Both the position numbers and the translations under genes were made by a program. From the NCBI RefSeq assembly GCF_001748285.1, contig NZ_BDGT01000047.1:1-35293 (forward strand): a stretch of 35,293 nucleotides of DNA. The letters run 5' to 3'. This document shows, piece by piece, positions 25,808 to 35,219 of this stretch. Numbering within the stretch: the stretch's first letter is position 1; every line of letters begins with the position of its first letter. This DNA comes from Thermogemmatispora onikobensis (GTDB lineage Bacteria; Chloroflexota; Ktedonobacteria; Ktedonobacterales; Ktedonobacteraceae). The notes beneath the pieces are model-generated. The model saw only the letters and a list, made by a program, of their open reading frames with translations. It was not told the DNA's origin and ran no database searches.

Positions 25808-26022
25808 GTTTACGCCCCCATCCGTCTTTTTGCCCTTTAGCTGACCTGACATTCTTCTCACCTCCTGCTAGCTGCAATCCTTTTGATGTATACTTCTCTA
25901 TGTACAGGGAGATTGACCAGCGAGGGCTGTTCAGGCCCTCGCCAGATCAGGGAGCCTTGGTCAACCGCGTTAGGCTGCTTTTCAGGATGAAAGCAGAACG
26001 AGCCTCAGAAAGGAATCGCAGC

Positions 26023-28152
26023 ATGTCTGGCAAGAGACTCCGCGCTCTTCTCCTCCCGGGAGCACTTTCCCGTCTATTGATCCTCTTCCTCGTCTTGGGC
26101 AGTCTGGCACTGGTGAGAACGCTGCCCGGACTCCGCGGCGAGCCGGCCCATGCCGCTTCGCCCGTGACCTTGAGCGTCTCCGGTATGAGCGCGACGATCG
26201 GCAATGGTATCTTCACGGTCAAATTTAACAGCTCCGGTACTGGCTACTCGCTGGTCTGGCAGGGCAAGGAGCTGATTGGGCCAGCCAAGGGCTTTTACAG
26301 CTCGATCAATGGTGGCACGGGCTTCAGTCCAACGCAGCTCACTGTCGTGACCAATACCTCTAGCCTGGTCGATATCGCCTACATCAGTAGCTGGGGCGAG
26401 CTGCACTACGTCGTTCGCAGCGGCGTGAGCGGTCTTTACTCCTACTTTCTGGCCACTGGCATCGGGACGGTTGGTGAGTTCCGCACGCTCTACCGTGTCG
26501 ACGGTTCGATCTTCCGCACAGGCTATAACGGCGCCGAAACCGCCATCGCTTTCCCAACCCTGAGCCAGATTCAGTCGGCTACCGTGCTCCAGGACTCAAC
26601 CTATCAGCTGAGCGATGGCACTATCTATACGAAATACGACGCTGCTACCTACCTGATGAGCCAGGATTTGCTGCACGGCGTCTACGGCAATGGCTACGGC
26701 GTCTGGCTGATTTCGCCCAGCCACGAGTACAACAATGGTGGCCCGCTGAAGCAGGATCTGACGGTCCACGTCGATAGCAGTAACGGCGATGCCGTTGTTC
26801 TCAATATGCTCATTAGTGCACATTTTGGAACACCAGAGGTGACGATCCCCAACGGCAAGCTCTTCGGTCCCTGGTTTGTCTACTTTAATAACGGGAGTAT
26901 CAGCGATGCCCAGGCTCAGGCCACGCTCCAGCAGCAGCAATGGCCCTATAGCTGGCTCTCCAACCCGGCCTATCCACTCAACAGGGCTACGGTGACAGGT
27001 AGTCTGCGCCTGGCCGACGGACGCCCTGCCGCCGGGGCCCAGATCACACTGGCCCAGCCTGGTGGCGACGTCTATGCCCAGGGGGCCGGCTATATTTTCA
27101 CAACGGTGGCCGACGCCTCCGGCAACTTCACGCTTCGCCAGGTGCGTCCCGGCAGCTACAGTCTCTACGCCTGGGCCAACGGCGGCAGTATCGGCGATAT
27201 CACGGATCAGTACGAGCTGGATAACGTGAACGTGACTGGGACGAGCACCAGTCTGGGCACCTTGACCTGGACGCCGGTACGCTACAGTATCCTTCTCTGG
27301 CAGATCGGCACCGCGGACCGCAAGGCAGCGGAGTTCCGGCTAGGCAATCTGCCGCGCCAGTACGGTCTTTGGAACCAGGTCCCGGCGAACCTGACCTATA
27401 CCATCGGTTCCAGCACGCCTGCGAACAACTGGTACTATGCCCAGACGGCGGTTGGTACCTGGAATGTCAATTTCTCTGTCAGCCAAAGCTACAGCGGCGA
27501 TGCTCATCTAACGGTGGCGCTGGCCGGTATGACACGTACTGCCGCCGTGACGGTCCGCGTAAATGGGACGGCCATCGGTTCGTACCCAGCCTATACGAAC
27601 GACGCGGCGATTTATCGCAGCGCCAATCAGAGCGGCTACTACCACCTGATGACCTTTACCTTCCCGGCCTCGCTGCTGAAGATCGGCACTAACACGGTAG
27701 CCTTTGCCATGACTTCGGTCAGTAGCGGCGGCGGCGCGATGTACGATACAATCAAGCTGGAGGTGGGGCCCCAGGTGACCGGCGGCTCGACCGCATCCCC
27801 TACACCTACCCCGACCGCCGCTTCCTCGGGGAGCACCTGTCGCGTGAGCTATAGCGTCACCAGCCAGTGGCCCGGTGGCTTCACGGCCAGTATTACGCTG
27901 ACGAACAGCGGAACAACGACGATCAATGGCTGGACGCTGACCTTTGTCTTCAGCGCTGGCCAAACGGTCACTCAGGGCTGGAATGCCACCTTTAGTCAGC
28001 AGGGAAGCCAGGTAAGCGCAAGCAGCCTGAGCTATAACGCCACGCTGGCCCCAGGCGCCTCGACTACCCTGGGCTTCAATGGCACCTGGACCACTACTAA
28101 TCCTGCGCCAGCCTCCTTCACCCTGAATGGACAGAGCTGCGCGCTCTCCTGA
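26023..28152 (+). CDS. Secreted rhamnogalacturonan lyase-like (PL4) protein with C-terminal CBM2
   Basis: This 709-residue extracellular protein begins with a basic N-region, a long hydrophobic stretch and AHA, a signal peptide. Residues about 40-310 are a beta-sandwich lyase domain with patterns of polysaccharide lyase family 4 (LVWQGKELIGPAKGFY, IYTKYDAATYL, LHGVYGNGYGVWLISPSHEYNNGGPLKQD). A carboxypeptidase-regulatory-like domain follows (ATVTGSLRLADGRPAAGAQITL), then a CBM-like jelly roll. A TASPTPTPTAAS linker leads to a CBM2 (about 600-709) with Cys at both ends. PL4 cleaves rhamnogalacturonan I; CBM2 binds cellulose or xylan. The ATG at 26023 has AAAGGA 8 bases upstream; earlier in-frame starts would lengthen the N-region. 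A -10-like TATACT lies at 25889-25894. Confidence 0.83.
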   Translation: MSGKRLRALLLPGALSRLLILFLVLGSLALVRTLPGLRGEPAHAASPVTLSVSGMSATIGNGIFTVKFNSSGTGYSLVWQGKELIGPAKGFYSSINGGTGFSPTQLTVVTNTSSLVDIAYISSWGELHYVVRSGVSGLYSYFLATGIGTVGEFRTLYRVDGSIFRTGYNGAETAIAFPTLSQIQSATVLQDSTYQLSDGTIYTKYDAATYLMSQDLLHGVYGNGYGVWLISPSHEYNNGGPLKQDLTVHVDSSNGDAVVLNMLISAHFGTPEVTIPNGKLFGPWFVYFNNGSISDAQAQATLQQQQWPYSWLSNPAYPLNRATVTGSLRLADGRPAAGAQITLAQPGGDVYAQGAGYIFTTVADASGNFTLRQVRPGSYSLYAWANGGSIGDITDQYELDNVNVTGTSTSLGTLTWTPVRYSILLWQIGTADRKAAEFRLGNLPRQYGLWNQVPANLTYTIGSSTPANNWYYAQTAVGTWNVNFSVSQSYSGDAHLTVALAGMTRTAAVTVRVNGTAIGSYPAYTNDAAIYRSANQSGYYHLMTFTFPASLLKIGTNTVAFAMTSVSSGGGAMYDTIKLEVGPQVTGGSTASPTPTPTAASSGSTCRVSYSVTSQWPGGFTASITLTNSGTTTINGWTLTFVFSAGQTVTQGWNATFSQQGSQVSASSLSYNATLAPGASTTLGFNGTWTTTNPAPASFTLNGQSCALS

Positions 28153-30194: not shown

Positions 30195-31433
30195 TTATGA
30201 CCTGGCCAGGCTCAGATCGTCGCGACGCTGGCGACGCGCAAACGCTTTGGCATGCTCCAGTCGCTTTTTGATCGAAGGATGGTCGTGAAAGAGGATCTCG
30301 ACCAGCGGGGCCGGCTCGGCTTCGGCAAGGTTCTGATTGGCCAGGCGCGTCATCATGCTCTGAAAAGCCTCGCTCTTGCCCGTGGTTAGCAGGGCATACT
30401 CGTCGGCCTGATATTCGAGATAGCGGCTGATGGCGTTACCCAGAGGCATGAAGATCAGGCCGATCACAGCACTGACCAGAGCGATCAGGGGCAGGGTTGC
30501 CGGATCAGCCAGGCCGTGATAGCCAAACTGCGGCGTGGCCAGCCAGTGCAGGGTGACATTGATCAGATAGAGGGCCACCAGGGTCAAGAGCGACTGGCTG
30601 GCGATGAGCTTCCAGATGTCGCCGTGAACATGATGGCCCAGCTCATGCGCCAGAACGACTTCGATCTCGTCGGGCGTATATTGGTCGAGCAGGGTATCGC
30701 CCACGACGATGCGACGTGTGTTCCCCAGACCCATCAGGGCCGCATTGGCCGCGGTGGTCTTGCTGCTCATGTGCATGGTGAAGACACCGCGTACGCGCGT
30801 ATGAGCACGCTCGGCGAGCGCCAGCAGGCGCGCTTTTAGCTCTCCATCGGGCAGGGGGGTGAAGCGATAGAAGAGGGGCAGGATCAGGATGGGGGCCAGA
30901 TTGGCCAGTACCACCGAGAAGAAGAGCATCACCAGAGCCACCCAGAGCCACCAGGTCAGCGGCTGCCAGGCCAGCAGTAGATAGATGAGTTCCAGAGCTG
31001 CCAGCTCCAAGACAATACTCAAGAGCAAGCCTTTGAGCAGGTCGCCTAGCCAGGCCCCCAGCGTCTGCACAGAGAGGCCATAGCGCCGCGGCAGGACGTA
31101 GCCGCGATAGACAGTCAGGGGAGCGCTGATCAGCTCGTAGACCAGGAGCAGGACCAGGAAGTAGCCGGCCACCTGCAGCGGGTACCAGCCCGCTAGCGGC
31201 TGCCAGGCCAGCGGCTGCAAGAGGTCGCGCAGCCAGAGGTCGAGCCGGAAGAGATAGAGAACCACCAGGCCAGCAGCGGCGATGGCCAATCCGACGAGCC
31301 AGAGCCTCCGCCGGAGACGCGCATACTCACGCGCCTCCCGCTGCCGCTGGGGATCAAGCTGGGCGGTCGTGGCTGGCGGCTCTTCTCTCTGCTGCGCTGG
31401 TTGTGTAGTCTGTGTAGACTGCTCTCGTTCCAT
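30195..31433 (-). CDS. M48-family (Ste24/HtpX-like) integral membrane zinc metalloprotease
   Basis: This 412-residue protease has a Gln/Pro-rich cytoplasmic N-terminus (about 1-40), about four to six TM helices and the M48 zinc site. HELGHH lies at 263-268, with Glu340 in EYQAD as third ligand and Asp344 following. The neighbouring TPDEIEVVLAHELGHHVHGD is the diagnostic segment, and ANAALMGLGNTRRIVVGDTLLD is the conserved substrate strand. Members degrade or process membrane proteins. The ATG at 31433 has GGAAGG about 8 bases upstream. It lies 94 bases after the Clp-N/M48 gene on the same strand, and the two protease domains are clearly paralogous, so an operon and local duplication are likely. 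Confidence 0.93.
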   Translation of the reverse strand: MEREQSTQTTQPAQQREEPPATTAQLDPQRQREAREYARLRRRLWLVGLAIAAAGLVVLYLFRLDLWLRDLLQPLAWQPLAGWYPLQVAGYFLVLLLVYELISAPLTVYRGYVLPRRYGLSVQTLGAWLGDLLKGLLLSIVLELAALELIYLLLAWQPLTWWLWVALVMLFFSVVLANLAPILILPLFYRFTPLPDGELKARLLALAERAHTRVRGVFTMHMSSKTTAANAALMGLGNTRRIVVGDTLLDQYTPDEIEVVLAHELGHHVHGDIWKLIASQSLLTLVALYLINVTLHWLATPQFGYHGLADPATLPLIALVSAVIGLIFMPLGNAISRYLEYQADEYALLTTGKSEAFQSMMTRLANQNLAEAEPAPLVEILFHDHPSIKKRLEHAKAFARRQRRDDLSLARS

Positions 31434-31527
31434 AAAAGCTACCTTCCTCCACGCGATGCTAAGCGCCAGTGCAGTGCCCGGGCTAGCCCGTGTCAACCTG
31501 TTTCGCTTTATCTTAACGCACAGGCCC

Positions 31528-33252
31528 TTATCTGGGCAAGCCGCTCTTGCTCGCCTGCCCTCGCTGCTGCAAGCTGAACAGATCGGCCTGAGCCAGCCGT
31601 TGCGCTAAAGACGGGTAGCTGCGGTTAGTGGGCCGTTCCCCCCAACCTCCTCGCGCGCTCGCGGCACTGAGATTGGCCAGACGAATCACAGCATTGCGGT
31701 AGGCTCGCACAAGGCCGGTCCGTTCCAGGGCAAACCTATCAGCACGCATCTCCTGACGATAGGATAAGGAGTTGTGGAGGACTCTGTAGTTCAGCCAGAG
31801 AGCAAGAAGCACCATGACGAGCGCCACCTGACCTAGCTTGCTGGTCAGGGGAAAATTTGAGACGAGCATCAACTGCCAGAGGAGAAGCCAGGCCAGGTGA
31901 TAGAGCGCGCTCAAACCGATACGCCAGAGAAGGTCATTGTGGACATGGTGAGCCATCTCATGGGCACAGAGGACCTCTATCTCGTCAGGCGGGAAATGCT
32001 TGAGCAGGCTGTCTGTTAGCCAGATTCGGCGCCTTGATCCCAGGCCCGTGGCATAGGCATTGGCTATGGCCAGTTGCCCCTCGGTCTCGTAGACATAGAT
32101 GCCTTCCAGCCTCAGACTCAGGCGCTGTAAGAGATTGGCGCAGCGCTGTTGAATTTCGCCCGGGGGGAGCGGGTAGCGAGCAGCAGGCAAGAGACTAGCT
32201 GGCCTGCTCACCCACCAGCACGAGAACAAGAGCCAGATCACGATGAGCAGCCAGACTGGCAGCCACCACCAGGCCGGCATAGCCACCTGCAGTACGGCAG
32301 CCAGCCCTATCACCAGGCTGAGAGCCAGCGTCAGGCTCAGCCAGCGACTGAACTGGAAGCGAAGCCAGTACCCTGGAGAAGAGCGCAGGATGCCCTGCGC
32401 CCTGATGCTCTGGAGTAGCAGAAGAACTAGCGGGACAAAACCTATCAGGCTGCCCAAAAGCCAGTAGATCAGAAAGGCTTTCAGGGTGGCCAAGAGACGC
32501 CAGACCGGATCAGCCAACAAGAGATCTCCATCCACCCCAGGGAACGACACTGTTAGCAGGCTCAACGGTGCGGAAGGGAACCAGGCGAAGGCTAAGAGCA
32601 GGCAGCCAATGATGGCCAGCCAGAGCCTCACTTTGCGGACGAGGGAGCGCTGGGCGGACACAATCGCCTGTTGGTGAGCCATGTCTATGAGGACCACCTC
32701 CGGCTCGAGTTTACCCTGTTTCTCCTGTTTGACTTCAGCCCCCGACTGCGCACGGGCTGCCAGTCTCTGCTGAATAAGCTGGCGAGCCTGCCCTAGAGCC
32801 TCGGACCCAGCCACGAATTCAGCGAGTGGGCGCTGCTGGCAGGCAATCAACCCCAGCAGCAGATGCAGTGGTTCAATGCGCTCATGGCCAAGATGGCCGG
32901 CTTCAGCAGCGGCAGCGTTCAGAGCACTCCGCGCAGCTTGAGAGAGGCCGCCCTCAACTCCCACCTCCTCGCTGAGCGCCACACTAGAGAAGATAAGCTG
33001 TGTTAGGCGCCCGTTAAGCGTCGCGAGATCTATTCCCAACTGAGTGAGACAGGTTGGCCCTTCCTCCTGCGGGTCGGCCAGGAGTCCTGCCAGAAGGTCA
33101 GGTCCCGTTAACCACGACCGCCCTGCCTGCAGCGCCAGTCGGCAGGCGTGTACCAGCACTTCTTTCGCACGATAACTGTAATGCTCGTAACTGGGGATAT
33201 ACTGCTCCATACTCATGCTACTCAGGTCTCCCATCTCTTTCTGCCGGGCCAT
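31528..33252 (-). CDS. Fusion of a Clp-N (double Clp R) domain with an M48 membrane metalloprotease
   Basis: In this 574-residue protein, residues about 22-165 form two Clp-N repeats (YSYRAKEVLVHACRLALQAG with LTGPDLLAGLL, then LSQAARSALNAAAAEAGHLG with IEPLHLLLGLI), normally the N-domain of ClpA/ClpB/ClpC. Six TM segments follow (about 208-226, 255-282, 305-325, 329-348, 445-467, 472-492), with the M48 site HEMAHH at 431-436 and EMRAD at 501-505. No AAA+ module is present, so the Clp-N domain may serve as an adaptor for substrates of an ATP-independent protease. The start at 33252 is taken as first ATG; 33216, with GGGAG 11 bases upstream, is a good alternative. Promoter TTGTCA/TATAAT lies upstream. 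It precedes the simpler M48 paralogue. Confidence 0.85.
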   Translation of the reverse strand: MARQKEMGDLSSMSMEQYIPSYEHYSYRAKEVLVHACRLALQAGRSWLTGPDLLAGLLADPQEEGPTCLTQLGIDLATLNGRLTQLIFSSVALSEEVGVEGGLSQAARSALNAAAAEAGHLGHERIEPLHLLLGLIACQQRPLAEFVAGSEALGQARQLIQQRLAARAQSGAEVKQEKQGKLEPEVVLIDMAHQQAIVSAQRSLVRKVRLWLAIIGCLLLAFAWFPSAPLSLLTVSFPGVDGDLLLADPVWRLLATLKAFLIYWLLGSLIGFVPLVLLLLQSIRAQGILRSSPGYWLRFQFSRWLSLTLALSLVIGLAAVLQVAMPAWWWLPVWLLIVIWLLFSCWWVSRPASLLPAARYPLPPGEIQQRCANLLQRLSLRLEGIYVYETEGQLAIANAYATGLGSRRRIWLTDSLLKHFPPDEIEVLCAHEMAHHVHNDLLWRIGLSALYHLAWLLLWQLMLVSNFPLTSKLGQVALVMVLLALWLNYRVLHNSLSYRQEMRADRFALERTGLVRAYRNAVIRLANLSAASARGGWGERPTNRSYPSLAQRLAQADLFSLQQRGQASKSGLPR

Positions 33253-33422
33253 GCTCTTCTAACCACCAGTGCGTGACACGTCGCAGCAGCGAGCGTGCCT
33301 TGGCCCAATAGCTATAGCTCTTAAAGGCTGGAATACGCCATTGGTCCTAGCCATTGCCACCCCTCTCTTCTGCTGCATTGTCCCCTTCTCTCTCTCCTTC
33401 ATAAATTTCCAGATGCTTATCT

Positions 33423-33450
33423 ATTATAGACGGAACTCCGCTCCTGACAA
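33423..33450 (-). promoter_or_regulatory. Promoter of the Clp-N/M48 gene
   Basis: On the minus strand, -35 TTGTCA (33450-33445) and -10 TATAAT (33428-33423) are 16 bp apart. The spacer contains CGGA/TCCG, a short inverted repeat. Transcription would start about 165 bases before the first ATG. Confidence 0.65.
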
Positions 33451-33552
33451 GAGGCTTTTATGGTGCACAGTGAAGTAAGATGTGGCTCTCATATTTACAA
33501 GAAGAAAGAAAATACATTTTTTGAAGATAGAAATTGCACTCAATTTAACATA

Positions 33553-33752: not shown

Positions 33753-35219
33753 TCAGAGCTTGTGGAAAGTGCAGCTAACCTTACCAAAGTGGAGCGAGTC
33801 GCCATCGTTGAGAGGAGTCGCCTTATCCGGTTCCAGGCGCCGCCCATTGATGCGCGTCGCATTCGTGCTGTTCAAGTCTGTCAGGGTAAAGGTACTGCCG
33901 ATATGTTCCAGAAGCGCATGCACGCGCGAGACTGTGTCTGCATGCTCCATCGGGCCCAGATCAATATCGGGCTTCAGGCCGCCCAGGTCGTGATCGTAGC
34001 GTCCTACCACCAGGCGCTCACCTGTCAGGAGAAGCTCACGACCATCGCCAAAGATCAGCCGTCCCCACGGCGCATTAGGATCAGGACGCGGCTCACTGGC
34101 CGGGCGAGCTTTGATCGGCTGGGGAGGGCCAGGAGGTGGCGGCGAGACAGGGGCCGCAGGGACAGCGGGCGCAGGCGACTGCGAGCCAGGGACCTGCACA
34201 GTGGGCACAGAAGAGGCCGCAATCGTCGGCTCAGCACTAGAGCTGGCGCTGGTCTCCGTACCCTTATCCTGCGCCCCTGGCCCAGGAATAAAGGTCACCG
34301 TTGGCTTCGGAATTACTGGCGGCCTGGCCGGTACCTGGGAAGCATAGGGCTGGATCGGTGGCTTCGCTGGCGGTGCAGGAGGAGGGGCCACCGGCGGCTT
34401 CGCCGGTGCCGGAGACGGAGCCGGCTGAGCAGGCGGCTGGACCCCCCGCGCGCCCGAACCCTGGGACTGGAAAGTTGAAGCCCCACACTTCGGGCAGAAG
34501 GCCGCATTGGGTTTCAGCTCTGTTTTGCAATTAGGACAGAGTTGCTTGAGCGCCCGCCCGCAGCCCGAGCAGAAGGTATCGCCCGGCTCATACGGCGTGT
34601 TGCACTGAGGACAGCGCAGGCCAGCAGCGGGCCGCGCAGGCATCGCCGTGGGAGCTGCTGGCACAGGCGTGGGCGGCACATAGGGCGGCACATAGGACGG
34701 TGAACCCGGCGACGGCGTCGGCACCGCTCCATAGGGACCCGCCGACATGGCCGGTCCCCCCCACTGTTGCTGAACCTGCGGCAGAAGCGAAGGGGGAATC
34801 GGGCCGATCTGTACCTCGGGACGCTGCTGGCGCACCAGGCCATCAACCATGTTGAGCACCTCATTGGCCAGGCTCGCCTGACGCACGGCCCCCACACCGG
34901 CAGTAATCGCCAGCGGCAGCAGTACCGGGATGACCATCGCGCCCACAGCTCCTATCGTCCCAACCGCCGCTTTATCCATCCAGCGCTGCTGGCCAATCAT
35001 CGCCAGCACTCCCCCCGAGACACGCTGCAGCGTCACCGAGAGGGCAGCCTGCATTCCGAGCACGGCCTCAAAGTCGCCGCCCTTCTTCAACTGCACCAGG
35101 GCCTGATCGGCATTACTAAACTGCTGCGTCTGATACCCCTTGGCACGATAGACATTCTCCAGATCGGTGGCCAGACGCGGTATATCGATATCTTGCGATG
35201 TATAAAATCGGGCATCCAT
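33753..35219 (-). CDS. Double zinc-ribbon protein with C-terminal FHA domain
   Basis: This 488-residue protein has four parts. An N-terminal alpha/beta region of about 140 residues (ARFYTSQDIDIPRLATDLENV, hydrophobic helices at about 84-112) contains possible membrane contact. Two zinc ribbons follow, with cysteine pairs 203/206 with 217/220 and 228/231 with 242/245. A Pro/Ala-rich linker spans about 250-385. The FHA domain from about 391 to the end carries VVGRYDHDLG, SRVHALLEH and LNSTNATRINGRRL, so the phosphothreonine-binding Arg, Ser, His and Asn are kept. It is probably a signalling scaffold linked to a Ser/Thr kinase elsewhere in the genome. The ATG has GGAG 8 bases upstream. The gene is complete, and lies upstream of the protease gene. 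Confidence 0.87.
   Translation of the reverse strand: MDARFYTSQDIDIPRLATDLENVYRAKGYQTQQFSNADQALVQLKKGGDFEAVLGMQAALSVTLQRVSGGVLAMIGQQRWMDKAAVGTIGAVGAMVIPVLLPLAITAGVGAVRQASLANEVLNMVDGLVRQQRPEVQIGPIPPSLLPQVQQQWGGPAMSAGPYGAVPTPSPGSPSYVPPYVPPTPVPAAPTAMPARPAAGLRCPQCNTPYEPGDTFCSGCGRALKQLCPNCKTELKPNAAFCPKCGASTFQSQGSGARGVQPPAQPAPSPAPAKPPVAPPPAPPAKPPIQPYASQVPARPPVIPKPTVTFIPGPGAQDKGTETSASSSAEPTIAASSVPTVQVPGSQSPAPAVPAAPVSPPPPGPPQPIKARPASEPRPDPNAPWGRLIFGDGRELLLTGERLVVGRYDHDLGGLKPDIDLGPMEHADTVSRVHALLEHIGSTFTLTDLNSTNATRINGRRLEPDKATPLNDGDSLHFGKVSCTFHKL

Follow-up and report, generated by a model that had tools for sequence, protein, structure and literature searches.

A Clp N domain joined to a membrane M48 metalloprotease in the Ktedonobacteraceae: a candidate ATP-independent protease with a tethered receptor

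Background

Clp N domains are of interest both as the part of AAA+ unfoldases where docking takes place and as a target of antibiotics. In Thermogemmatispora onikobensis, a thermophile from soil, a gene designated here fusB carries such a domain ahead of a membrane-embedded M48 metalloprotease, which raises the question of what a Clp N domain does on a protease of this kind and how the combination arose. The gene lies on contig NZ_BDGT01000047.1, positions 1 to 35,293 of which are referred to below as the window. An earlier, sequence-only reading of this locus proposed a possible ATP-independent protease that arose by duplication of the neighbouring M48 gene followed by the gain of a Clp N domain. 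Here, both the architecture and this scenario were examined by comparative analyses.

Results and discussion

Domain organization of fusB

The features of fusB and of the adjoining M48 gene are as follows (all on the minus strand):
31528 to 33252, minus: fusB, Clp_N plus M48 membrane metalloprotease, 574 aa in a single uninterrupted frame
32737 to 33195, minus: Clp N domain of fusB (aa 20-172), built of two helical repeats, as seen by Pfam and in the fold
32206 to 32625, minus: four transmembrane (TM) helices of fusB ahead of the catalytic domain, aa 210-349 (hydropathy, positive-inside pattern and AlphaFold2 helices)
31945 to 31962, minus: zinc-binding HEMAHH of fusB, aa 431-436 (motif in alignment)
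31738 to 31752, minus: EMRAD of fusB with the third zinc ligand Glu501 (motif in alignment)
30195 to 31496, minus: plain M48 paralogue with Peptidase_M48_N and without Clp_N (Pfam; orthologues 86-97% identical within the genus)

Because the orthologues begin at (V/M)SHLSTMHMEQYIP and MESQSTMSMEQYIP, fusB probably starts at M7 (33234) and not at 33252; the plain M48 gene probably starts at 31433 (MEREQSTQ), as its orthologues do, and not at the TTG at 31496. In a Pfam search of the 574-aa protein, Clp_N scored 27.3 bits in two stretches (gathering cut-off 20.7), Peptidase_M48 scored 67.4 bits over aa 365-556 (gathering cut-off 20.3) and no AAA+ domain was found. Peptidase_M48_N had no match at E<=1 in fusB, whereas the plain neighbour scored 89.8 bits. 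In a phmmer search against PDB sequences, aa 17-164 matched the N-domains of mycobacterial ClpC2 and ClpC1 (best E 2.7e-6) and aa 327-452 matched Ste24p (E 1.1e-8). The zinc site is complete, consisting of H431, E432, H435 and E501. The Clp N domain at the N-terminus, the six-helix M48 protease with an intact HEMAHH...E site and no ATPase, and the adjoining M48 paralogue devoid of Clp-N, all of which had been read from the letters alone, are thus borne out by Pfam, and for the protease part hydropathy and the motif alignment agree.

By its Pfam score, its HExxH with a downstream Glu and its fold, fusB is a member of the Ste24/HtpX-type M48 family. It lies outside the Clp/Hsp100 ATPases, as the AAA+ modules are absent after Clp_N, and outside the ClpC2 type (soluble Clp_N, no protease), as it has six TM helices and an M48 domain; it also lacks the five-helix N part (Peptidase_M48_N) that marks the M48A Ste24 CAAX proteases.

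Predicted structure and membrane topology

An AlphaFold2 model of fusB, based on an alignment with 37 related sequences, had a mean pLDDT of 84.2 and a pTM of 0.86, and its parts were compared with known structures using Foldseek and VIA-align. As the Clp-N assignment had anticipated, aa 20-172 form a complete double repeat with the fold of the N domains of ClpC, ClpB and Hsp104 (Z 15-18; for the ClpB N-domain 1khy, Z 17.7 and 1.8 A over 130 residues). The remainder resembles ZMPSTE24/Ste24p (Z 24-27), and the membrane chamber plus catalytic domain align with ZMPSTE24 at Z 27.2 and 3.6 A over 358 residues.

Hydropathy indicated six TM helices, four of them before HExxH. Positive charges are found in loops 0, 2, 4 and 6, with nearly none in loops 1, 3 and 5, and this pattern places Clp_N, the HExxH segment and Glu501, the third ligand, in the cytosol, so that the Clp N domain and the zinc site are both predicted to lie on the cytosolic side. 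The plain M48 neighbour has the same TM and charge pattern.

With Ste24/ZMPSTE24 and HtpX, fusB shares the HExxH...E site, the membrane helices, the fold and the predicted cytosol-facing active site; these proteases, however, have no N-terminal receptor domain, and fusB differs from them in having six instead of seven TM helices and no match to Peptidase_M48_N. Among M48 proteases that carry an extra protein-binding domain, BepA of E. coli is the best known. Its TPR repeats give it, like fusB, a separate protein-binding domain, but it is periplasmic and soluble, and its TPR receptor is unrelated to Clp_N (cf. PMC7950410). Mycobacterial ClpC2 likewise carries Clp_N without an ATPase of its own (PMC10030653); unlike fusB, it is a soluble regulator or sponge with a four-helix dimerisation domain and no protease. 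The FtsH ternary conflict systems, in which ClpN repeats are fused to vWA, also place Clp_N repeats on a non-Clp protein, but the published account of them describes no M48 fusion (PMC7159879), and none of their partner genes was seen beside fusB in the window.

Distribution of the fusion

Profile searches were run on 47 genomes from the class and on 400 from the phylum Chloroflexota. Full-length Clp_N-M48 fusions were found only in Thermogemmatispora, an uncultured genus known from metagenome-assembled genomes (MAG genus g2; G006 and G018) and Ktedonobacter, all three of which belong to the family Ktedonobacteraceae. The architecture that the sequence-only reading had suggested looking for in other Chloroflexota therefore recurs in two further genera. 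Both Pfam domains scored above the cut-off in three fusions of the MAG genus and in two of Ktedonobacter, and the Clp_N scores in these two genera (37.9-61.1 bits) were above that in the window. That a frameshift might have joined two separate genes is ruled out by the same continuous architecture in independent genera, and the interpretation of fusB as such an artefact was rejected. A scan of 84,980 species genomes of all phyla, which relied on a pair of short M48 motifs and would overlook a fusion that arose separately with another M48, gave 55 loci, with full-length fusions confined to the same three genera of the Ktedonobacteraceae. Searches of 294 genomes of Planctomycetota and 297 of Acidobacteriota, sets that contain no positive control, gave no fusion at E<=1e-62.

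Within Ktedonobacter, K. racemifer and K. sp. SOSP1-85 carry an intact fusion. Of the two Clp_N-M48 copies in K. robiniae (L083:5004-6509 and L085:4875-6716), one is truncated and the other falls into two reading frames that part close to the catalytic region. No description of a Clp_N-M48 fusion was found in the open-licence literature; as far as could be searched, the combination is undescribed, although anyone consulting the public domain databases would be able to see it.

A tandem sister gene and its loss

Upstream of fusB, the window holds the following:
33270 to 33462, minus: remnant of a second fusion gene, fusA, comprising the promoter region and first codons with a broken frame (ATG at 33378)
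33423 to 33450, minus: promoter-like TTGTCA-N16-TATAAT, 11/12 consensus (TCTATAATAGAT invariant in three species)
33753 to 35219, minus: zinc-ribbon/FHA protein, a conserved neighbour of the M48 genes of the family (Pfam and synteny)

The ancestral operon of Thermogemmatispora held two tandem fusions, fusA and fusB. As fusA itself lies in relatives, the gene and its remnant in the window had escaped the sequence-only reading. In T. tikiterensis (G001 = L089) the order is FHA gene, fusA, fusB and plain M48, the stop of fusA overlapping the start of fusB, and in G004 the same genes are divided by a contig end. The 193-base remnant of the window is 79.9% identical in DNA, over 199 columns, to the promoter and start of T. 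tikiterensis fusA, after which the alignment jumps to the start of fusB. Judged from this alignment, the window has lost fusA while retaining its promoter and first codons, and the promoter-like element of fusA now stands directly ahead of fusB.

The losses differ among species. In G002, fusA is kept and fusB is reduced to a C-terminal scrap; in G003 and T. aurantia (G005 = L090) only scraps of the fusions remain; and in G004 both are present, with fusB cut by the contig end (two contigs overlap by 22 bases). Overall, fusA is missing in three of the six Thermogemmatispora species and fusB likewise in three, which argues for an accessory function.

fusA is 32-34% identical to fusB. Its Clp_N scored 25.4 and 32.5 bits in two species and 18.5 bits, below the cut-off, in G004; Pfam gave no M48 match, and AVAPY, TVAPY or ELAPY stands where HExxH would be. 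The fold model of fusA (pLDDT 74.0, pTM 0.65) is weaker than that of fusB, yet comparison with known structures still recovers ClpC N domains and, with a poorer fit, ZMPSTE24.

By Nei-Gojobori counts, with synonymous sites close to saturation in the more divergent pairs, dN/dS was 0.21-0.28 for fusB (0.16-0.19 for its Clp_N part), 0.26-0.36 for fusA (0.22-0.25) and 0.07-0.12 for the plain M48 gene, so that the fusion genes are two to three times less constrained than the plain paralogue. Neither part of fusB thus looks as though it were decaying. The fusA pair of T. tikiterensis and G002, at a dS of 0.24 and a dN/dS of 0.36, is not near saturation, and together with the other fusA values it indicates that the dead copy is constrained and is no fresh pseudogene. 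In terms of substitution counts, both parts of fusB and fusA are under purifying selection.

Two further observations concern the surroundings. The zinc-ribbon/FHA protein shares an unassigned N-terminal domain of about 180 aa with the product of an adjacent gene (L034:5062-5658), and only the former adds zinc ribbons and FHA. In addition, a large secreted protein is encoded at 25900-28152 on the plus strand, by eye polysaccharide lyase-like with a C-terminal cellulose-binding-like module, and about 87-91% identical within the genus.

Origin of the fusion

A recent duplication of the neighbouring gene followed by Clp-N gain, as proposed from the sequence, is rejected in this simple form. In the M48 tree, a clade made up of the Thermogemmatispora fusions and the plain M48 genes beside them was rejected (p-AU 1.7e-7). 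Instead, the fusions group with Clp_N-less M48 proteins of Dictyobacter (support 100/96), far from the plain neighbours, in trees whose long branches call for caution; this grouping indicates an old duplication at the family level. A single clade of fusions was not rejected for either the M48 part (p-AU 0.295) or the Clp_N part (p-AU 0.31), and the trees may accommodate one gain of Clp_N or several. The Clp_N tree is too weak to tell a ClpC, ClpB or free-standing origin.

The Dictyobacter proteins in question are second, fast-evolving M48 proteins without Clp_N (L091:4956-6116, L095:4935-5984 and L097:5007-6164). In D. kobayashii and D. vulcani, the second M48 gene lies beside a UvrD/PcrA-type helicase gene.

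The Clp_N binding pocket

Although fusB shares the complete double-repeat fold with the ClpC/ClpB N domain (Clp_N, PF02861), it differs from it in having no AAA+ module, in its membrane anchor and in its phospho-arginine pocket. The sites in the ClpC N domain, which we take to be T7/E32 and T81/E106 (B. subtilis numbering), read T, E, T, E in the ClpC of the host and S26, P51, S104 and L129 in fusB of the window. P and L also occupy both Glu positions in fusB of T. tikiterensis and G004, the fusions of the MAG genus keep the first pocket Glu, and those of Ktedonobacter have D and E at the two positions. By these residues, fusB does not appear to be a ClpC-type phospho-arginine-binding N domain. 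With the pocket residues replaced, phospho-arginine is unlikely to be the tag for the Thermogemmatispora fusions, the best understood recruitment code of Clp_N probably does not apply to fusB, and its specificity probably differs from that of ClpC. A search for McsB in the genus (PF00217, NF002194) gave no match, but the controls were equally without a match.

Possible functions of the fusion genes

We favour the view that fusB is a Ste24/HtpX-type metalloprotease of the membrane that faces the cytosol, works without ATP and uses Clp_N as a tethered receptor, and assign this reading a probability of about one half. The two domains, the complete zinc site, the conservation in three genera, the purifying selection and the common side given by topology prediction all point in this direction, and a substrate-recruiting role independent of ATP would be the most economical reading of fusB. 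The Clp N domain might bind an adaptor, a protein of the cytosol, or a membrane protein that tends to aggregate or is only half inserted; the putative client would then be held beside the opening of the M48 chamber on the same side of the membrane and be cleaved without ATP. In species that have both genes, fusA, encoded in the same operon, would probably regulate fusB, act with it as a partner or serve as its decoy. More tentatively, the two might form a membrane protease/pseudoprotease pair in which Clp_N with a new binding code picks cytosolic clients for ATP-independent proteolysis under conflict-like rapid evolution; in design, such a bacterial pair would parallel the active and inactive rhomboids.

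The abundance of non-ATPase Clp_N proteins in Ktedonobacteria indicates that the domain serves this class as a receptor module in its own right. Clp_N without ATPase occurs together with HTH_17 (L138, L150 and L052) or singly (L154, in the T. onikobensis genome), and tandem arrays hold two (L140, L142) or three (L157) complete Clp_N domains. The T. onikobensis genome also encodes a 1228-aa protein (L166:2898-6584; G000:C41, minus) in which a CHAT caspase-like peptidase domain is followed by Clp_N, two Clp-type AAA modules and ClpB_D2-small; it joins a CHAT protease to an Hsp100 unfoldase, and a DUF4012 protein is encoded next to it. The same genome has a divergent Clp ATPase of 902 aa (L053:7929-10634; G000:C2, minus), which is distinct from the ClpC and ClpB of the host and whose Clp_N is divergent as well.

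Several other functions have to be weighed against a receptor-equipped protease. fusB might be a site-specific regulatory protease that cuts one dedicated partner, such as a membrane-tethered signalling protein, with Clp_N reading the signal, fusA modulating it and the zinc-ribbon/FHA protein acting in the same pathway. The rapid divergence between species would suit a dedicated pair, and the FHA gene adjoins the M48 genes in Thermogemmatispora and genus g3 and is nearby in the MAG genus; the same gene, however, stands beside the plain M48 even in fusion-free genomes, and the Ktedonobacter fusions are located elsewhere without it, so that we regard this role as rather unlikely. A membrane arm of the Clp system, in which Clp_N would recruit ClpC or ClpB adaptors and hand over clients bound to these, or fragments, between ClpCP and the protease in the membrane, would agree with the complete Clp N fold and with the presence of adaptor or partner complexes (MecA, YjbA) among the ClpC N-domain structures it matched. 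The strong divergence from ClpC at the known pocket positions makes this improbable, as does the lack of a recognisable adaptor gene next to the fusion; we know of no adaptors of Chloroflexota ClpC.

Clp_N might also mimic the ClpC N domain and bind peptides or small proteins that poison or hijack ClpC, the protease destroying the bound peptide and fusA being a plain sponge. ClpC2 offers a precedent, being a proven sponge for cyclomarin A, a natural product that binds ClpC1 (PMC10030653), and the maintenance of a dead fusA, whose Clp_N is its most constrained part in one comparison, would fit, as would fast evolution and repeated loss in an accessory defence against variable molecules. A decoy should nevertheless keep the surface of its target, and at the cyclomarin-binding residues (F2, F80 and E89) the window fusion has Y, L and N where the ClpC of the same genome has F, L and E; moreover, PADLOC gave no defence-system match for the fusion or the neighbours tested, and a sponge needs no membrane anchor. 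By analogy with ClpC2, such a function has its appeal for the dead fusA, but we would give it little weight. The proposal that the fusion is an old relic in decay that does nothing important appears least probable: although each fusion gene is missing in half of the Thermogemmatispora species and both K. robiniae copies are damaged, the reading frames are intact and dN/dS is 0.2-0.36 where the genes are kept, the dead copy included, and two Ktedonobacter species retain an intact fusion.

Conclusions

The Clp_N-M48 fusion is real, old, rare and fast-changing, and combines two well-known domains. With Clp_N placed on an ATP-free membrane protease, recruitment can be studied apart from unfolding, and a recruitment code of another kind is to be expected from the loss of the phospho-arginine pocket. 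The natural dead copy fusA provides a built-in test of the role of Clp_N without proteolysis.
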